Assembly (NCBI RefSeq): GCF_000955805.1
Contig: NZ_JYOA01000003.1
Span: forward strand, 87,540-151,539
Direction of reading: 5' to 3'
DNA length: 64,000 nt
From: Pseudomonas sp. 21
GTDB lineage: Bacteria > Pseudomonadota > Gammaproteobacteria > Pseudomonadales > Pseudomonadaceae
In this document: one piece after another, positions 17,719-28,137 of the stretch
How positions within the stretch are numbered: the stretch's first letter is position 1
Layout of the letters: each line of letters begins with the position of its first letter
Notes under the pieces: model-generated
Told to the model about the DNA's origin: nothing
Database searches by the model: none
Seen by the model: only the letters and a program-made list of their open reading frames with translations
Translations under genes and position numbers: made by a program

Positions 17719-17887
17719 CTTGGGGGAAGTCGAGATCCTTCCAATTGGTGTTGCGCAAAAGGCTATTCAGTTTGTAGGACATTTCTGAAAGATCGCCCTG
17801 AGTCGCAACGCCGCGCGAACGCCGTTCCGCGCGTCGACAAGACCGGTTACATTTGGCTCCCCCGCCATGCACGATCAAGGAATGTTC

Positions 17888-18700
17888 ATGCAGCTCACGC
17901 GTCGGATGGTTCGTGCCGTCTTTATTCTGTCAGCCAGTCTCCTGGCTGCGACGGTCGCTGCCGAACCGGGTGCGGAGCTTTCCAGCCCCACTGCCGGCTG
18001 GCGTTATTCCGGCCTGACCGATGATCCCAGCGTCCCGCGCGTGGCCTATCCCACGCCTCCCATCGACCGTGGTGACGTTCGTGGCCGCAGCCTGATCGAA
18101 GGGCACCTGCGCGAAGTCTCCGGCGTCGACCGTGCCCAGCGCCTGGTGGTCAACGGCAATCCCCTCCCGCTCTACACCGATGCCGAAGGAAAATTCGTTC
18201 GCCCCTACAACTTCGGTGCGGGTAGCAACAGCGTTGCGGTCAGCAGCGACCAGGGCAAATCCCTCAAGCGCGTGCAGTTCTATGAAGCCAACCATGGCCG
18301 CATCCCGCCGCGCATCCGCCTGGCCCTGGGCTGGAACGACCCCAAGGCCGAACTCGACCTGCATATCGTCACGCCCGATGGGCAGCATGCCTTCTGGGCG
18401 CAGCCGCGCCTGAGCAACGGCGGCGGCCTGGACCCGGATGGCGTCGACGGCCCCGGCCCGGAAATGTTCACCATGGCCGCGCCGCTGCACGGCACCTACC
18501 TGGTCTACGTGAACTACTGGGGCAACTACAACGCCAGCCAGGGTTACAACTTCCAGGAAGGCAATCACGAGCAGGACGTGATCACCGCCGAGATCAACCT
18601 GGTGTTCAACGAAAATACCGTCAACGAGAAGCGCGAGACCTTCGTGGTGCCCATGCGGACCATCGGTGATCTGGTGCTGGTGAAGACCTTCAACTACTGA
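17888..18700 (+). CDS. magA: MagA, DUF2135 periplasmic protein of the mag operon
   Basis: This 270-residue exported protein is first in the A2M operon. It has a signal peptide (basic LTRRMVR, hydrophobic core, ending VAAEP) and a C-terminal DUF2135 domain with ELDLHIVTPDG and GTYLVYVNYWG. ATG 17888 is preferred because AAGG is spaced about right from it; in-frame ATGs at 17882 and 17867 are alternatives. It is a distant paralogue of the last gene, magF, which shares the DLDLHLVTPDG and YLVYVNYYG signatures. The role is unknown beyond its constant linkage to MagD; in P. aeruginosa mag genes are reported to be under post-transcriptional RetS/Rsm-linked control. Confidence 0.85.
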   Translation: MQLTRRMVRAVFILSASLLAATVAAEPGAELSSPTAGWRYSGLTDDPSVPRVAYPTPPIDRGDVRGRSLIEGHLREVSGVDRAQRLVVNGNPLPLYTDAEGKFVRPYNFGAGSNSVAVSSDQGKSLKRVQFYEANHGRIPPRIRLALGWNDPKAELDLHIVTPDGQHAFWAQPRLSNGGGLDPDGVDGPGPEMFTMAAPLHGTYLVYVNYWGNYNASQGYNFQEGNHEQDVITAEINLVFNENTVNEKRETFVVPMRTIGDLVLVKTFNY

Positions 18701-18738
18701 ATTCGCCCCTCGCAGGGATGACACGGGACAAGCGATCC

Positions 18739-20490
18739 ATGAGCGACAATACGCCCTCCAGCAGCCAAGACAGCACCCCTTCGCCGACGCCGGCCCAGGC
18801 CCCGAGCCGTGGCCCGCTGATCGCCATCGGCGCGCTCGCCGCCGCGCTGGTCGCCGGTGGCCTGGCCCTGGCCTTTGGCCTGATTCCCGCCTTCCATTCG
18901 GCGCCGGTAGGCACTCTGGAGGCACCGGAAAACCCGGAAGTGGCCCGCGACCTCAAGCGCCCGGACGCGCTGATCGAGAGCGCCTCCCTCAGCCAACTGC
19001 CCAAGGCGGTGCTGGAAGTGCCGCTGCTGCGCGACGTGCTGACCGAGGACTTCGTCTTCTACTACGAGAACAACGCCGACCGCCTGGGCCTGACCGGTAC
19101 GCTGCGGCGCATCGTCTACGAGCATGACCTGACCCTGAAGGACAGCGTGATCGAGGAGCTGCTCGACCAGCCGGCCCAGGTCGCCCTGTGGCGCGGTGCC
19201 GATGGCCGTCTGCGCGACTTCATGGTGGTGCTCAAGCGCGGCGGCCTGGCCAAGGTGCTGGAGCCGCTGGCCAAGGTCGCAGCCGATGACACCCAACTGA
19301 AGAAGGTTGCGGACATCCAGGTGAAGGGCAGTGCCACGCCCGTCTACAGCCTGCGTTACGGCGCCGAGAAAACCTTGCTGTTCGTCTCCCGTGGCGACCA
19401 GATGCTGGTGCTGTCCAATCCGAAGATGCTCTTCCCCAACCCGGACTACGACAATCTGGGCGAGCCCGATGCTGCCATCGCCAAGGACCTGGGCAGCGCG
19501 CTGGAAGGTGAGCCGCTGTTCGCCAGGGACTTAGCCCTGGAGCCGCGCGGCGAGCTGAAGCAGCGCATCACCCTGAGCGCCGGCGTGCTCGCCATGGGCT
19601 ACCAGCGCTTGATCCCGACCTTCGCCGGTGTGCGCTTCGAACAGGGCAAGGACGGTTGGCACAGCTACCTGGCGCTCAATGAAGTGGCACGTCAGCCGGA
19701 CCTGGATTTCACCCCCGTCTGGCAGGCCATGCCCATGGGCGCCAGTGCCTGCGTCGCGCTGCCGGTTACGCCGGGGCTGTACGACAACATGCTGGTGAAG
19801 CTGGGCGCCGAGCAGAAGATGGCCGCGGCCTTCTCCGAGCACCTTTCCGGTGCTGCCGGCCTCTGCTGGTACCCGGAGTCGCGCCTGCACTCGCCGCTGC
19901 TCGCAGTGAAGCTCGACGCACCCGCCAGCCCCGAGCTGGACGATCAACTGGGCAAGCTGTTCGGCAGCATGATCGGCGCCTACGAGGCCAATGTGGAGGC
20001 GGGCGCCTTCGAGGTGGAAAGTCGTGCCGAAGGCGATGGTCGCCTCTGGCAGCGCCAGGTCAGCTCGCGCTTCGGCCAGTACCCGGCCAGCGAGGCGGAG
20101 AATCCCGACCAGGTCAGCGGCAACGGCTTCTTCCGTGTCAGCCTGCTGCGCGATGGCAACACCCTGCTGTTCTCCATCGACGACAAGCTGCTCGACAAGG
20201 CGCGCAATACCCTGGCCAAGCGCTACCCGCCGCTGGCCGACGTGCTGCCCAAGGATGCAGTGGTGCCGGCCTACCTGGCGCCCACGACGCTGTCCGAGCT
20301 GCTCAAGCGCGAAACCCTCGACAGCCTGCCGCAGGACCTCGAGCCGGTGTTCCGCAACGCCGCCGATACGCTGCTCCTGCCGCGCCTGAAGACGCTCGCT
20401 GGCAACGGCTCCTACGCCCTGACCCTGCCGGCCGGCAGCGAGCCGAGCGGCGAATGGGAGTGGCTGCCGCTGGACTGGAAGGCGCTGTGA
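18739..20490 (+). CDS. magB: MagB, DUF2138 protein
   Basis: The 583-residue product has a short cytoplasmic N-terminus rich in Ser/Pro/Thr, one membrane segment (about residues 26-48), and a large periplasmic domain of the DUF2138 family (YfaA-like). The text [23 protein letters not shown] is typical of the family. No catalytic motif is recognised. It starts 38 bp after magA; ATG 18718 would add seven residues. Its stop overlaps the GTG start of magC by 4 bp, which suggests coupled translation. It is known only as a fixed member of the YfaS-type A2M operon. Confidence 0.83.
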
Positions 20491-21119
20491 TCCGCAAACC
20501 CCTCACACTGCTTGCCGGTCTGCTTGTCGCCACGCTGGCGCACGCAACGGAGCCGGCGCTGGATGCACAGCAGACCCAGGTGTTCCGCGCCTGGTTCGTG
20601 CGCATCGCCGAGGAGCAGCTGCGCCGTGGGCCGAACCCGCGCTGGTATCAGCAGGACTGCGCCGGTCTCGTGCGCTTCGCCGCCAACGAGGCGCTGAAGG
20701 TGCACGACGCCAAGTGGCTGCGCGCCAACGGTATGTCCAACCGCTACCTGCCGCCGGAACTGGAACTGTCCGACGCGCAGCGCAATCTCGCGCAGACCTG
20801 GCAGCAGGGCGGCGGCAAGACCGGCCCCTACGTCAACGCGATCAAACTCGTTCAGTACAACAGCCAGTTCGTTGGCCGCGACCTCAATCAGGCGCGTCCC
20901 GGCGATCTGATGTTCTTCGACCAGGGCGATGACCAGCATCTGATGATCTGGATGGGCCGCGACATCGCTTATCACACCGGCACTCGTACGGCGACCGACA
21001 ACGGCATGCGCTCGGTCAGCCTGCAACAACTCATGACATGGAAGGACACCCGATGGATACCCGACGAATCCAATCCCAACTTTATCGGCGTCTATCGCTT
21101 GTCCTTCCTGACCCGATGA
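20487..21119 (+). CDS. magC: MagC, DUF1175 protein with NlpC/P60-like motifs
   Basis: This 210-residue exported protein (signal peptide to about ATLAHA) belongs to DUF1175 (YfaT-like). I see the layout of an NlpC/P60 papain-like peptidase: Cys58 in DCAGLVRF, then GDLMFFD, then His151 in DQHLMIWMG, and a possible third residue His163 in AYHTG. Such enzymes cut peptidoglycan peptides or related amides. This assignment is motif-based and not confirmed. The start is GTG 20487, overlapping the magB stop (GTGA); the stop overlaps the magD start (ATGA), so magB, magC and magD are translationally coupled. Confidence 0.82.
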
Positions 21120-24100
21120 ACGCGCTGCGCGGCATTGCCGCTGCCCTGGCCTGCGCCGGCCTGTTCGCCGCCGCGCCCGCGATCGTGCAGGCGGACGACG
21201 ACGTCCCTGCGAGCAACTACACGCCCATGGCCGGCGAGTCGTTCTTCCTGCTGGCCGACTCCAGCTTCGCTTCCGACGAAGTGGCCAAGGTGCGCCTGGA
21301 AGCGCCGGGCCGCGATTACCGCCGCTATCGCATGGAGCCTTACGGTGGCGCGGACATCCGCGTCTACCGCATCGACCAGCCGCTGGACTTCCTCAAGCGC
21401 CAGAAGAACCTGCACCGTGTGCTGTCCGAAGGGCAGTTCAAGGGCGAGGGCCTCTCCAACACCCTGGCCTACCTGTGGGACAACTGGTACCGCAAGTCGC
21501 GTCGGGTGATGCAGCGGACCTTCTCCTACGAGTCGCGCCAGCAGGTCACCGAAGTGGTGCCCGAGCTGAGGATGGGCAATACCATGCGTGCCCCGACGCC
21601 GTATGACCCACAGCCGCAGTACGCGCCGATCCCCGGCTTGCCGATGGTCAGCCAGTTCCGCTACCCGCTGTGGGACGCCAAGCCGATCCAGCCGCCCAAG
21701 GAAGTCACCCTGGCCGGCTCCTCCAGCGAATTCATCAACGTCGCTCCCGGCAACGTCTACGTGCCGCTGGGCAAGTTGAAGCCCGGCCTGTATCTGGTCG
21801 AAGCGCTGGTTGGCAAATACCGCGCCACCACCGTGGTGTTTGTTTCCAACAGCGTCGCGGTGAGCAAGATCGCCGGTAACGAGCTGCTGGTCTGGACCGC
21901 GCGCAAGCATGAAGGCACGCCGGTGGGCGGCGCCAAGGTGCTGTGGACCGACGGCCTGGGCGTGATGAGCAGCGGCAGCAGCGACGCCGATGGCCTGCTG
22001 CGCCTGCAGCACGTCAGCCCCGAGCGCTCCTTCGTGATCGGCGAGGACGAGGAGGGCGGTGTCTTCGTCTCCGAGAACTTCTATTACGACAGCGAAATCT
22101 ACGACACCAAGCTCTACGCCTTCACCGACCGCCCGCTGTACCGTCCGGGTGACTGGGTGTCGCTGAAGATTGTCGGTCGTGAGTTCAAGAACTCCCGCGA
22201 ATCGCAGGCTCCGCAGGCTGCCCCGCTGCGCCTGTCGGTGATCGACGCCGCCGGTACCACGCTGCAGACGCTGGACCTCAAGTACGACGCGAAAAGCGGC
22301 ACCAACGGCCGCTTCCAGCTGCCGGCCAATGCCGTCGCCGGCGGTTACGAGCTGCGTTTCGATTACCGCGACCAGACCTACAGCAGTGCCTTCCGCGTTG
22401 CCGAGTACATCAAGCCGCATTTCGAGATTTCCCTCGACCTGGCCAAGCCTGACTTCAAGACAGGCGAGCCGGTGAAGGGCAACCTGATCCTGCTCTACCC
22501 CGACGGCAAGCCTGTGGCCAACGCGCGCCTGGAGCTGAGCCTGCGCGCCCAGCAGCTGTCCATGGTGGACAACGAACTGCAGTATCTCGGCCAGTTCCCC
22601 GTGGAGCTGTCCAGCGCGCAGATCACCACCGACGCCCAGGGCCGCGCCGCGCTGGACCTGCCGGCGGCGGAGAAACCCAGTCGCTACATGCTCACTGTGT
22701 TCGCCAGCGATGGTGCTGCGTACCGCGTGAAGACCAGCAAGGAAATCCTCATCGAGCGTGGCGCCGCGCGCTATCGCGTGAGCGCGCCGCAGCGCTTCAG
22801 CGCCGCTGGCGACAAGGTCGAATTCAGCTACGCCGCCGAACAACAGACGCAGATTTTGCCGACCGCCTACCGCTGGCTGCGCCTGGAAGACCGCAGCAGC
22901 GGCGACGGCGCGGTGGCCGACGGCAAGTTCGCCATCACCTTCGACAAGCCCGGCACCTATAGCGTCGAGCTGCGCGACAAGGCCGGCCAATTGCTCGGCG
23001 GTACTGGCCACTCGGTCAGCGGCGATGGCGTGAAGGCCGTGCCGGGCACGGTGGAAATCGTCCTCGACAAGGCCGAGTACAAGGCCGGTGAAGAAGCGCT
23101 GGCGCTGATCACCTTCCCCGAACCGGTGGACGACGCGCTGCTGTCGCTGGAGCGCGACAAGGTCGAGGCCACCGCGCTGCTGTCCAAGGGCGGCGACTGG
23201 CTGAAGCTGGAGAAGCTCAACCCGACCCAGTATCGCGCGCGCATTCCGGTGAAGGCCGAGTTCTCACCGAACCTGACCTTCTCCGTGCTCTACACCCGCA
23301 GCGGCGACTACAGCTTCCAGAACGCCGGCATCAAGGTCGCGGTGCCGCAGGTGGAAATCGCCGTCAGCACCGACAAGGAACGCTACGAGCCGGGCGAGAC
23401 GGTCACCGTCAACCTCGACACCACCTATGCCGGCAAGCCCGTCTCCAGCCACCTCACCGTGAGCGTGGTGGACGAGATGATCTACGCGCTGCAGCCGGAG
23501 ATCGCGCCGGGCATCGACCAGTTCTTCTACCACCCGCGCCGCAACAACGTGCGCACCAGCGCCAGCCTCGCGTTCATCAGCTATGACGTGGCATTGCCGG
23601 GCACGCCCAGCGCCCCCGGCCGCGCCAACCGCAGCGAGCGTGGCGTGAAGGTGCTGGAGCGCCCGCGCCGCGAGGAAGTGGACACCGCCGCCTGGGAACC
23701 CGAGCTGGTCACCGACGCCAACGGCAAGGCCCAGTTCAAGTTCCGCATGCCGGATTCCCTGACCCGCTGGCGCATCACCGCCCGTGCCATGGATGACGAA
23801 GGCCAGGTTGGCCAGAAGAAACAGTTCATCCGCTCGGAGAAACCGCTGTACCTGAAGTGGAGCGGCCCGAAGCGCTTCCGCACAGGCGATGCGCCGGACC
23901 TTGGTCTGTTCGTCTTCAACCAGGGAGAGCAGGACACCAAGGCCGAACTGCTGGTCCGCGCCAATGGCGAGGAGAAGACCCAGGCGCTGGAGCTCAAGCG
24001 CGGCGTCAACTACATCGCCCTGCCCAAGCAGCCGCTCAGCGACGGCGACTGGAGTGTGGAACTGCGCCAGGACGGCCAGGTGCGCGACAGCCTTGGCGTG

Positions 24101-25669
24101 CACTTCAGTCTCGTGGCGGACAGCTGGCAGGTGCTGCAGTCCAAACCGTTGCAGGTCAACGCGCAGAACACGCCGCTGCAGCTGCCGGCGGATGCTCGCG
24201 ATGTGAGCCTGCGCCTGGATGACAGCGCCCAGGCGCTGCTGCGCGGCAATCTGGATTCGCTGCTCGACTATCCGTGGGGTGGCGTCGAGCAGACCGCCAG
24301 CCAACTGCTGCCGCTGAGCGTCGCCTACCCGATGCTGGCCAGTGGCGAGCCGCGTGTACGTGATCGCCTGCGCCTGATCCTGCAGACCAGCCGCCTGCGC
24401 CTGGTGCAGATGGCTGGCCCGGACGCCTACTTCACCTGGTGGGGCGGCGAAGACAACGACGCCTTCCTCACTGCGTATGCCTACTACGCCGACTGGCACG
24501 CCAGCCGCGCGCTGGAAATCCAGCTGCCGCCGGACCACTGGCAGCGTGTGCTGGAACTCTACTCCGCGCGCGCCAGCGCAACGCCGCTGCTACAGCGTGC
24601 GCTGATCCTGGCCTTTGCCCGCGACATGCAACTGCCGGTGCAGACCCTGGTCAGCGGCCTGCTCACCGACCTGGAAAACGCCGGCAACGGCGAGGCAGCG
24701 AAGTCCGTGAACGACTTCGACAGCGACGACAGCCTGGTCATGGGCCAGCCGGACTCCGAGCTGGGGCTGGCGGTGGCTCGCGTGCTGACCGCCAGCCTGG
24801 CCGAGCAGAACAAGGTCGCGCTGCCGCCGGGCTTCGCCAAGCAACTGGATGGCGCACGCCTGAAGCTGAACACCAGCGACCAGCCGTTCGCCCGCGCCGT
24901 GCAGCTCTACAGCGGTAGCGTGGACGCCAGCCGCGCTCGCGCACTGCTGCTGAGCCTGGCGCCGCAGCAGTCCACCGTCGAACGCGCCCTGGCGCTGACC
25001 TGGATGCAGCGCGCCGTGGCCGAGGCCCCGGCCGCCGAATTGCCCAAGCCGGTGGTGGACTGGAAGGAAGGCCACAGCACCACGGGTGACGCCTTCTGGC
25101 AATGGCAGGGCAAGGAGGTGCCAGCGCAGCTGGACCTGAGCGCCGCGCCGTCGCGTCCGCTCAATGCTTCCGTGACCTTCCGCAGCGCCGAAGCGCCGGC
25201 CAGCCCGTTGCCGGTGACCATCAAGCGCCGCCTGCTGCGCCTGGTGCCCGGCGAAGACGCCTTCGCCTTCAAGGCCGAGGAGCTGGGTGACAAACCGCTG
25301 TCCAGCGACGAGCTGTACCTGGACGAAGTAACCCTGACCACCGACCAGGCGCAAGCCCTGCGCTACGGCATGCTGGAAGTACCGCTGCCGCCGGGCGCGG
25401 ACGTCGAGCGCACCACCTGGGGCCTGCAGATCAGTGGCCTGGGCGGCGTCGAGGCGACCAGCCTGGAGCGCGCGCGCAACGAGCCGGGCGACCTGTTCTA
25501 CGGCGTGCCGGTGGATACCCTGGGCGGCGAGCTGCGCTTCCGGCATCTGGTCCGTTTCTCGCAGAAGGGCGAGTTCGTCCTGCCGCCGGCGCGTTACCAG
25601 CGCCTCTATGCGCCGCAGGAGCAGGCGCTGGAGCAGCAGCCGGCCCTGGCGAAGATCAAGGTCCAGTAA
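21116..25669 (+). CDS. magD: MagD, alpha-2-macroglobulin homologue (YfaS type, no thioester)
   Basis: This 1517-residue protein is the A2M of the mag operon. A signal peptide (ending about VQADDD) leads into MG domains, with [14 protein letters not shown] marking MG-type domains near residue 340. An A2M domain follows with [14 protein letters not shown], then a thioester-domain helix barrel. At the thioester position the sequence is GGVEQ (Gly1056-Val-Glu-Gln1059), so the reactive cysteine is absent, as expected for the YfaS clade. P. aeruginosa MagD is a periplasmic, protease-binding A2M homologue, reported in a complex with other Mag proteins. The start is ATG 21116, overlapping the magC stop. 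Confidence 0.93.
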
Positions 25670-25672
25670 TCC

Positions 25673-27316
25673 ATGCGCGCGCGCCTTGCCGGGCTGATCC
25701 TGCTGTTGCCGCTGAGCGCCCTCGCGGCGCCCGGGTCGCAAGAGCCGGCGCAGCTGGCCTGGCGCACTGCGCAGGGTGATGAGCTGCTGCGGCTCGGGCC
25801 GCAGCAGGTACTCGATCGCCAGCCCTTGCCGGCTGAGCTGAAAGCGCCGCTGGGCAGCCTGTGGAAGCTGTTTGTCTATGCCTGGCTGAACGACACCCAT
25901 CAGCAGGAGCCGGCCTATCAGTGCCGAGGCGAGAGCAAGGAAGAAGTCTATTGCTGCGCGGCCGGGCAGAGCATCGAGCGCGACGCCGCGCTGGTGAAGT
26001 CCTGCGGCCTGTACTTCCAGCCGCAGCGCCTGGGCATCGCGGGTTCGGTCTGGCAGCAATACTGGCAGGCGCGCCATGCGCCGGAATGGATCGTCCGGTT
26101 GGACAAGCTGGCGCCGCAAACCGAAGTGCCGGTCGCCGAGTTACTCGATCAACTTCAACATCTGCCGGCCCAGGAGCAGGCGCGAAAGGTCTTGCTCGAT
26201 GTCAGCCTTGCCGCCGATGACGGCCGCGCCCCCGCCGTTCTGGGTGGACGCCTGCGGGTGAAGACCTGGAGCTGGGATGAGAACGGCAGGCGCGAAGGCG
26301 GCTTTGCCGGTTGGCTGGTGGACGGCACGCCGCTCTGGGCGCGCGGACCGGGCACCAGCAAGACGGTGCTGGCGACGTACGGCACTGCCATCGGTGCCGC
26401 ACTGCCGGCCCCGTGGCCAAGCGATCCGGGCCGTTGCGTCGAGGTCGGGCTGTTCAGCCGCTATCCGCTGAAGGAGGTCTACGACGCGCGCAATCAACCT
26501 GCCGCCGAGGGCTTGCTGGCAGGCCGGCAGAACGTACTGTTCGCCAACGGGGTTCGCCTCGACGTGGACAGCCGCGGCGATCTGTTCCTCGAACGCAGCC
26601 CCCAGGGGCCGCGCCTGACTGCCCGTCTTTCCCGCGAGGAATACGTTGCACGAGTGCTGGATCGCGAGGCATCGGCCACGCCGCCGGAAGCCGCCAAGGC
26701 GCTGGCGGTGACCATCCGCACCTACCTGTTGCAGAACGGCGCCCCGCGCGGCGACTGCCTGAGCATCGACGACAGCAGCCAGCGCCAGCGCGTGGCGCCG
26801 CGACCGGCCAGCGAGGCGGCGCGCGGCATCGCCGCCTGGACCGCCGATCTGGTATTGGCTGGCGGTACTGTCACTTATCACTCGGACGAGGCAGGGCAGT
26901 CGAAACTCTCCTGGCGCGACGCCCAGGGGCAGGCCGCCAAGGGCCTGCGCTATGACGCGATCCTCGCCCGCGCATTCCCGCGCACCAGCCTGAGCCGCTG
27001 GAGCAACCCGACCGCGGCCTGCCAGCCGCTGCCGGAGGCCGAGCGCTGGCTGCAGGCGCAGCGCCGCGAATGGCGTCCGCGCCTGGAAACCGAGGCGGGC
27101 TACGAGGAATTGCAGTCCTTCGCCGTGTGTCGCCTGAGCAGCGGCCGGCCCTACGTCGACCGCGAACGCCAGCGCATCTTCGTGCGTGGCCTGTATTCCC
27201 AGCAGGACCGCCTCGACCTGGCTCACGAATACCTGCACCTGGCCTTCCAGGCGCACCCCAATGGACAAGACGAGGGCTACGTGGAAAGCCTGGCCCGTCG
27301 CCTGATACTGGAATGA
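25673..27316 (+). CDS. magE: MagE, DUF2300 protein, possible PBP-like/SpoIID-like fusion
   Basis: This 547-residue exported protein (signal peptide ending ALAAPG) is of the DUF2300 (YfaQ-like) family and starts 3 bp after magD. In the N-terminal half I see Ser62-Leu-Trp-Lys65, Ser110-Cys-Gly and Lys230-Thr-Val. Their order and spacing resemble the SxxK, SxN/SxV and KTG motifs of penicilloyl-serine transferases, but the second and third motifs are altered. In the C-terminal half, EEYVARVLDREAS followed by PPEAAKALAVTIRTYLL resembles SpoIID lytic transglycosylases, with Glu332 at the catalytic position. Both are inference from motifs. Its stop overlaps the magF start. Confidence 0.82.
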   Translation: MRARLAGLILLLPLSALAAPGSQEPAQLAWRTAQGDELLRLGPQQVLDRQPLPAELKAPLGSLWKLFVYAWLNDTHQQEPAYQCRGESKEEVYCCAAGQSIERDAALVKSCGLYFQPQRLGIAGSVWQQYWQARHAPEWIVRLDKLAPQTEVPVAELLDQLQHLPAQEQARKVLLDVSLAADDGRAPAVLGGRLRVKTWSWDENGRREGGFAGWLVDGTPLWARGPGTSKTVLATYGTAIGAALPAPWPSDPGRCVEVGLFSRYPLKEVYDARNQPAAEGLLAGRQNVLFANGVRLDVDSRGDLFLERSPQGPRLTARLSREEYVARVLDREASATPPEAAKALAVTIRTYLLQNGAPRGDCLSIDDSSQRQRVAPRPASEAARGIAAWTADLVLAGGTVTYHSDEAGQSKLSWRDAQGQAAKGLRYDAILARAFPRTSLSRWSNPTAACQPLPEAERWLQAQRREWRPRLETEAGYEELQSFAVCRLSSGRPYVDRERQRIFVRGLYSQQDRLDLAHEYLHLAFQAHPNGQDEGYVESLARRLILE

Positions 27317-28137
27317 TCGACATGAAACTTGCCCATGCGCTCCGCCTGTCTCTGCTCGCCAGCCTGATACCGCTGGGCGTGCAGGCCGCCGAATCGCCGA
27401 TCCGCCTGGATACTCCGCTGGGCGGCTGGCGTGCGGGCGACGGCGACAAGGCCGACTTCCGGCAGACGGTGAACTACCCGGCGTCCTCGGTGAACGCGCG
27501 GGACGACCAGTCCGATACCGCGCGCATCCGTGGCGAAATCCGTGGGTTGCCCAAGGACAGCAAGGAGCCGGCGCGTCTGGTGGTCAACGGCGTGGCCATG
27601 CCGATGCGGGTCGAGAACGATGGCAGGTTCGACCGTCCCTTTGCCTTCCCGGCCGGTTCCAACAGTGTCGAGGTCATCAGCCCGGACGGCCAGCAGCACA
27701 AGCGCGTGCAGTTCTACCACGGCGGCGGTGGCGGCGAGGTAGCGGCGAAGCTGCGGGTCTTGCTGTCCTGGGACTCGGACAACACCGACCTCGACCTGCA
27801 CCTGGTGACGCCCGATGGCGGACACGTCTGGTACGGCAACCGCTCACTGCCCAACGGCGCGGCCCAGGACGTCGACGTGACCACCGGCTACGGCCCGGAA
27901 ATCATCGCCAGCCCGACGCCGCTCAGGGGGCAGTATCTGGTCTATGTGAACTATTACGGCGGCGGCTGGAGCTCGGATGAAAGCTCCGGCGACGTGAACG
28001 CGGCCAAGCCGTTGACCACGGCGCAGGTGACCATCGTCACGGAGGAGGGCACGGTGAACGAGAAGCAGGAGTCCTTCCTGATCCCGATGCGCCAGCCGGG
28101 TGAGCTGACCCTGGTGAAGCGGTTCAGTTATCCGTAA
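27313..28137 (+). CDS. magF: MagF, DUF2135 periplasmic protein
   Basis: This 274-residue exported protein ends the operon. A signal peptide (MKLAHALR, hydrophobic core, VQAAE) is followed by a DUF2135 domain with DLDLHLVTPDG, GYGPEI and GQYLVYVNYYGGG. It is the paralogue of magA, so DUF2135 proteins bracket the operon. ATG 27313 overlaps the magE stop (ATGA) and is taken as the start; ATG 27322, three codons on, puts the basic MKLAHALR directly at the signal-peptide start and is an alternative. No terminator with a T tract follows; the palindromes at 28155-28225 may serve to end or stabilise the mRNA. Confidence 0.83.
   Translation: MIDMKLAHALRLSLLASLIPLGVQAAESPIRLDTPLGGWRAGDGDKADFRQTVNYPASSVNARDDQSDTARIRGEIRGLPKDSKEPARLVVNGVAMPMRVENDGRFDRPFAFPAGSNSVEVISPDGQQHKRVQFYHGGGGGEVAAKLRVLLSWDSDNTDLDLHLVTPDGGHVWYGNRSLPNGAAQDVDVTTGYGPEIIASPTPLRGQYLVYVNYYGGGWSSDESSGDVNAAKPLTTAQVTIVTEEGTVNEKQESFLIPMRQPGELTLVKRFSYP

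Follow-up and report, generated by a model that had tools for sequence, protein, structure and literature searches.

Published work on the mag genes (PMC5764988, PMC12663445) leaves two questions, namely by what route Type II bacterial alpha-2-macroglobulins mature and why the operon that encodes them guards against wall-cutting toxins. We approached them through magE, the fifth of six genes in a mag (Type II alpha-2-macroglobulin) operon in the window, that is, the whole 64,000-nucleotide stretch of Pseudomonas sp. 21 DNA that was analysed. The gene order is the magABCDEF order described for P. aeruginosa (PMC5764988), the source also of the name MagE for PA4488:

17867 to 18700, + strand: magA (DUF2135).
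18718 to 20490, + strand: magB (DUF2138).
20454 to 21119, + strand: magC (DUF1175), start codon uncertain.
21116 to 25669, + strand: magD, alpha-2-macroglobulin, its likely start placed from a signal-peptide-like sequence inside the longer open reading frame 21038 to 25669.
25673 to 27316, + strand: magE, 547 aa, DUF2300 (PF10062), a real open reading frame whose product corresponds to YfaQ of E. coli and to MagE (PA4488) of P. aeruginosa.
25673 to 25729, + strand: putative Sec signal peptide of MagE, about residues 1-19, called by eye.
27313 to 28137, + strand: magF (DUF2135), its likely start overlapping the magE stop (ATGA).

MagE is 91-94% identical to the first six relatives listed, and its best relatives come from Pseudomonas. 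No phage-borne MagE was found in a protein scan of viral_contigs, and no PADLOC match linked MagE to a known defence family at E 1. The initial annotation described a two-part protein, a penicillin-binding-like domain fused to a SpoIID-like one. Both fold guesses stand in the predicted structures, but the modelled protein has three parts, a zinc-peptidase-like domain at the C-terminus having been overlooked. This architecture, as modelled, and the conservation of catalytic-type residues within it are well supported. The first domain and its motifs are located as follows:

25736 to 26416, + strand: domain 1, residues 22-248, class D beta-lactamase/BlaR1-sensor-like fold in the predicted model.
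25856 to 25867, + strand: SxxK motif S62-L-W-K65, from the alignment.
26000 to 26008, + strand: second motif S110-C-G, a variant of SxN/SxV with G in the third position.
26261 to 26269, + strand: likely third motif K197-T-W, at the KTG place.
26360 to 26368, + strand: K230-T-V, the third motif of the initial annotation.

In the model of whole MagE (mean pLDDT 81.3, pTM 0.50), the penicillin-binding-like fold was recovered over residues 22-248 by both Foldseek and VIA. The first Foldseek row for this region was Lpg1618 (E 9.4e-06, no class label) and the second OXA-57 (2.7e-05); class A beta-lactamases and PBP domains ranked lower among the 50 rows listed. VIA matched domain 1 to OXA-1 with Z 14.9 (rmsd 3.2, 199 residues aligned) and to the sensor domains of BlaR1 and MecR1 with Z 14.1-14.3. 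Conservation was followed in 90 aligned full-length homologues, comprising 80 relatives, the window MagE, YfaQ, and five and three sequences from other searches; the 80 were the best of 384 relatives, 79 of them titled Pseudomonas, and the alignment is weighted to that genus. S62 and K65 are kept in all 90, as are S110, C111 and G112, and the two serines lie 48 residues apart, the spacing originally reported. The third motif fared differently. Every residue named in the initial annotation is where it was placed, K230-T-V included, but K230 is kept in only 13 of the 90 homologues and T231 in 16, and residues 229-243 form the last helix of predicted domain 1; on these grounds it was rejected. 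A better candidate is K197-T198, invariant in the 90, with W (87) or F (3) as the next residue; in the predicted model the motif lies on strand 194-203, where class D enzymes carry KTG. It starts 135 residues from S62, compared with 168 for K230. S-C-G and K-T-[W/F], the latter with the usual glycine replaced, are thus altered forms of the motifs, and the third lies elsewhere than first annotated.

The SxxK penicilloyl-serine transferases have SxN or SxV as their second motif and K[ST]G as their third. MagE shares their SxxK and, in the model, their fold, but S-C-G and K-T-[W/F] depart from both patterns, so it is not filed as a member. Domain 1 may still act as a sensor or binder of the SxxK fold, the altered motifs pointing to binding or a changed reaction, not to an ordinary beta-lactamase or transpeptidase. 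The weight that any motif can bear was gauged with 20,000 shuffles of MagE, using gap tolerances picked after the protein was seen. SxxK arose in 10,167 shuffles and is thus meaningless on its own; only combinations are rare. SxxK followed by Sx[GNV] at 44-52 residues arose in 853, which is still common, and the same pair with a later KT in 48, which is rare. A SpoIID-like E...EAx[KR]... pattern arose in 7, HExxH in 112, and HExxH plus Glu in 28.

Domain 1 filled the fold search with the whole model, and domains 2 and 3 were therefore folded apart (residues 251-547; mean pLDDT 87.4, pTM 0.66). The second domain comprises:

26423 to 27007, + strand: domain 2, residues 251-445, compact SpoIID/SleC-like fold, from the predicted model and Pfam.
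26666 to 26668, + strand: E332, at the place of the SpoIID catalytic Glu101.

The proposal of a SpoIID-like C-terminal half held up in the predicted structure for residues 251-445. Within MagE 251-446, VIA matched the predicted domain to SleC (Z 13.1, 145 aligned) and to SpoIID (Z 12.9 with 139 aligned and 12.0 with 131 aligned), and the Pfam model SpoIID (PF08486) passed its cut-off with 29.1 versus 23 bits. The NCBIfam model SpoIID_LytB (TIGR02669) missed its own (16.9 versus 83.3 bits), and domain 2 is therefore called SpoIID-like and not filed under that model. SpoIID_LytB also gave weak matches in all six members of a MagE alignment (best E 1.3e-06), and a 48-sequence MagE profile searched against the PDB returned three matches up to E 10, all of them SpoIID and all weak (E 0.081, 0.42 and 0.46). 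E332, placed in the initial annotation at the position of the catalytic glutamate, aligns with position 101 of 5txu; in SpoIID of C. difficile, E101 serves as the catalytic glutamate (PMC6221140). Like S62 and K65, E332 is kept in 90 of 90 DUF2300 homologues. As modelled, domain 2 may cleave glycan. MagC is NlpC/P60-like, scoring just below the Pfam cut-off in the window (22.3 versus 23 bits) and above it in locus L119 (27). Its C69 is kept in 93 of 93 loci and its H162 and H174 in 92 of 92, which together give the mag operon a second candidate wall enzyme.

These two domains could suggest that MagE is purely a wall enzyme or remodelling factor, in which domain 2 would cut glycan, domain 1 would recognise stem peptides and domain 3 would be a structural remnant. 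Such was the view of the initial annotation, and it is close to that of PMC12282094, where a transpeptidase-like plus SpoIID-like reading of YfaQ was put into print in 2025. Both folds and the invariance of E332 fit it, as do the envelope links of the yfaQ deletion, which is reported to widen cells and to have a profile linked to those of mepS, mepK and nlpI deletions (PMC12282094). It also gains from the state of the locus in K-12 MG1655, where RefSeq annotates yfaS as a pseudogene, while yfaQ, yfaT, yfaA and yfaP are annotated as ordinary genes (L026/L027). If the yfaQ deletion strain is K-12-derived, YfaQ would act there without intact MagD. Against it stands the third domain:

27008 to 27313, + strand: domain 3, residues 446-547, minigluzincin-like zinc-peptidase fold in the predicted model; alone it constitutes the whole of MagE in distant mag operons.
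27224 to 27238, + strand: HExxH motif, H518-E-Y-L-H522.
27272 to 27286, + strand: E534 and E538, E534 being the candidate third zinc ligand.

In the predicted model HEYLH lies on a helix, and the next helix carries E534 and E538. H518, E519, H522, E534 and E538 are kept in all 90 homologues, and a second alignment of 20 rows, which includes eight short forms of MagE described below, retains HExxH, E534 and E538 together with C450 and C486 in every row. The gluzincin arrangement of HExxH with a downstream Glu ligand is thus present at the level of sequence. A metzincin arrangement (HExxHxxxxxH, with H518, H522 and H528) was considered and disfavoured: residue 528, where a metzincin would have its third ligand, is Tyr in YfaQ, whereas E534 does not vary, and gluzincins head the list of fold matches. 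A Glu is thus the better third ligand. The best VIA match to domain 3 was abylysin (Z 7.0, rmsd 2.9, 80 aligned of 105), in a range that VIA grades ambiguous, below its clear range. It was followed by selecase (Z 6.5), IrrE (5.7), PprI (5.6), BepA (5.3), 3c37 (5.0), lethal factor (5.0), 6d2s (4.4) and an M61 peptidase (3.2). Modest as these values are, fourteen of the 15 VIA rows with Z at least 3 and a range within MagE 449-547 are, by name, zinc metallopeptidases or kin of IrrE/PprI; the other, 6d2s, is a transcriptional regulator. Foldseek likewise returned selecase, weakly (E 0.065).

Sequence searches gave fainter signals for this domain. No Pfam or NCBIfam peptidase model reached its cut-off on MagE. 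Weak Pfam hints to SprT-like (E 0.011) and Peptidase_M78 (E 0.11) appeared in one or two members of 17, where unrelated families reached similar values (FWWh 0.061, zf-C2HC_2 0.12, CBF 0.14). A PDB sequence search with domain 3 found selecase at E 0.31, with angiogenin chains ranked higher (E from 0.025). Angiogenin is a ribonuclease, and the printed matches begin only after the HE of HExxH; its ranking was therefore put down to chance. From the model and the conserved residues, domain 3 is a putative zinc-binding domain. The word ‘metalloprotease’ is absent from the main texts of PMC12282094 and PMC5764988.

Distant relatives include MagE proteins that consist of little else than domain 3. 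PF10062 was searched in 398 genomes drawn from the phylum, of which 16 had a match and 15 were counted; the match in G009 (L017) was dropped, as it fell below the cut-off and contained 5 in-frame TGA codons, and no HExxH-type domain appeared under table 4. Nine of the 15 genomes carry two PF10062 stretches, as in full-length MagE, and six carry one; in those six, PF10062, which also fits domain 1, gives no second match at E 0.001 anywhere in the same genome. With two from further searches, these make up the eight short forms, which are 35-48% identical to the window MagE over domain 3 and all of which keep HExxH, E534 and E538. For seven of the eight, the neighbouring genes could be read; in each of these loci domain 3 was the sole MagE domain found, occupying the magE slot beside magF, and it adjoins magD in the six where the contig reaches that far. 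A wider tblastn survey covered 95 loci, of which 86 have all three domains and 7 have domain 3 alone; the remaining two are pieces of one K-12 locus, and L027 holds yfaQ with all three domains. In none of the 95 was domain 1 or 2 found without domain 3. The 80 Pseudomonas-type loci in this survey are the best-scoring of 384, a choice that would under-sample shortened forms there. Judged by these loci, no part of MagE is as tightly bound to the mag operon as domain 3. The invariance of its catalytic-type residues in full-length homologues, its standing as the sole MagE part in the short-form loci, and the failure to find domains 1 and 2 without it among the 95 loci all argue against its being a remnant, and we consider a role confined to the wall rather unlikely.

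Whether the short form is ancestral or arose by loss is a question on which the MagD tree (17 rows) does not discriminate: two changes are needed, 42% of bootstrap trees have one, and a single fusion cannot be told from loss. Because magA and magF both encode DUF2135, the MagA query of the tblastn survey matches magF as well, and its hits in short-form loci do not establish MagA there; in L117-L121, L125 and L126 the MagA and MagF queries match the same place, apparently a single DUF2135 gene. As a separate observation, MagF of the short-form operon L119 (8296-9363, - strand) carries an N-terminal LprI (lysozyme inhibitor) domain before DUF2135, scoring 24.7 bits against a Pfam cut-off of 22, and by eye MagF begins in a similar way in L120 and L121.

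These domains also bear on the family name. MagE matches DUF2300 (PF10062) with 248.3 bits against a cut-off of 25, in two stretches, residues 86-204 and 411-530. A true tandem repeat was rejected: the hhalign probability between the stretches is below 1%, and they lie in different predicted folds. The RefSeq name ‘tandem DUF2300’ for YfaQ probably stems from this two-stretch match, and it looks misleading: PF10062 joins two unlike stretches, and the name hides three different domains, an annotation that the present analysis corrects. DUF2300 is not mentioned in the literature searched, and no report of a third domain, a minimal MagE, a corrected third motif or non-tandem DUF2300 was found there. 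What appears to be new here is the third domain, domain 3 as the minimal MagE, the K197-T198 motif and the non-tandem reading of DUF2300, the two-part reading of the protein being already known.

What, then, might such a protein do in the mag operon? Deletion of magE is reported to disturb the processing of MagD, high-mass MagD being seen in the deletion strain, and MagB too is needed for that cleavage (PMC5764988). For loss of the 100 kDa form, the Fig. 6 legend of that paper names the magB and magC deletions, whereas its text gives magC no pronounced effect (PMC5764988). The paper reports MagE as cytoplasmic from its authors' earlier work, found no stable MagD-MagE complex, and prefers a chaperone or signal-peptide role for MagE (PMC5764988). 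Along these lines domain 3 would keep a zincin-like fold as a scaffold devoid of activity, and MagE would serve MagD as a chaperone or in its export, which would account for the high-mass MagD. The eight short forms, in which the HExxH and Glu pair persist at 35-48% identity, tell against an inactive scaffold. The N-terminus of MagE is signal-peptide-like (model pLDDT below 50 over residues 1-22), and a Sec/SPI signal is reported for YfaQ (PMC12282094). Together with eight cysteines that all 90 homologues share (C84, C94, C95, C111, C255, C362, C450 and C486), this suits a periplasmic MagE better than a cytoplasmic one. An inactive helper of MagD is, in our estimation, a distinctly improbable account.

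These considerations have led us to propose a model, advanced tentatively and at a little less than an even chance, whereby an exported, three-domain MagE attaches to wall that has been damaged and there matures MagD through its peptidase. Domains 1 and 2 would dock MagE on peptidoglycan, through stem peptides and glycan strands respectively, and domain 2 may cut glycan strands as well; the zinc peptidase domain would then cut a protein partner at the place of docking. Because MagD processing is disturbed when magE is deleted, MagD is the best candidate for that target. Export of MagE, its binding of zinc and of the wall, and MagD as its substrate are inferred. A different target was also weighed, namely that wall hydrolases, whether injected or invading, are trapped by MagD and then broken down by the peptidase, which would not mature MagD itself. 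MagD is reported to trap a protease without a thioester (PMC5764988), and magD confers protection from VgrG3, a wall-targeting T6SS effector, and in limited measure from Tae1, though it gives no protection against TseH and is dispensable against B. thailandensis; these protection data concern magD, not magE (PMC12663445). Degradation of trapped hydrolases leaves the altered MagD forms of the magE deletion unexplained and sits poorly with the lack of a stable MagD-MagE complex in PMC5764988, and we judge it quite unlikely. If the peptidase acts on MagD, as in the model we favour, wall sensing and a macroglobulin trap would be coupled within the one mag operon. A peptidase-type domain 3 that stands alone as MagE in some operons also makes the question of MagD maturation reducible to single residues.

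Comparison with known systems places these features in context. The closest are YfaQ and PA4488 MagE (DUF2300), of the same family and operon place as the window MagE. In SpoIID and SleC the likeness is one of fold and of the catalytic glutamate position, but MagE carries a compact version, of which 139 residues align within a chain of 285 (5i1t), and has it fused to other domains; it also comes from bacteria that are not known to sporulate. The minigluzincins abylysin and selecase resemble domain 3 in size, fold and the possession of HExxH with a later Glu; domain 3 differs in being probably secreted, in its two kept cysteines (C450 and C486) and in its tie to an alpha-2-macroglobulin operon. 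BlaR1 and MecR1 provide a likeness of working only: each has a class D-like extracytoplasmic domain and a zinc metalloprotease domain in one chain. The protease domain of BlaR1 faces the cytoplasm, with transmembrane signalling (PMC9834060); MagE, by contrast, has no membrane segment apparent by eye past its signal peptide, carries a SpoIID-like domain in between, and has altered second and third motifs. MagE could be a soluble periplasmic counterpart of BlaR1, in which domains 1 and 2 would sense stem peptides and denuded or broken glycan as signs of wall damage and thereby turn on the fused zinc peptidase, which would activate MagD. We regard this more specific mechanism as unlikely; if true, it would make of the mag operon a bacterial ‘complement-like’ system gated by cell-wall injury, with sensor and protease joined in one chain as they are in BlaR1.
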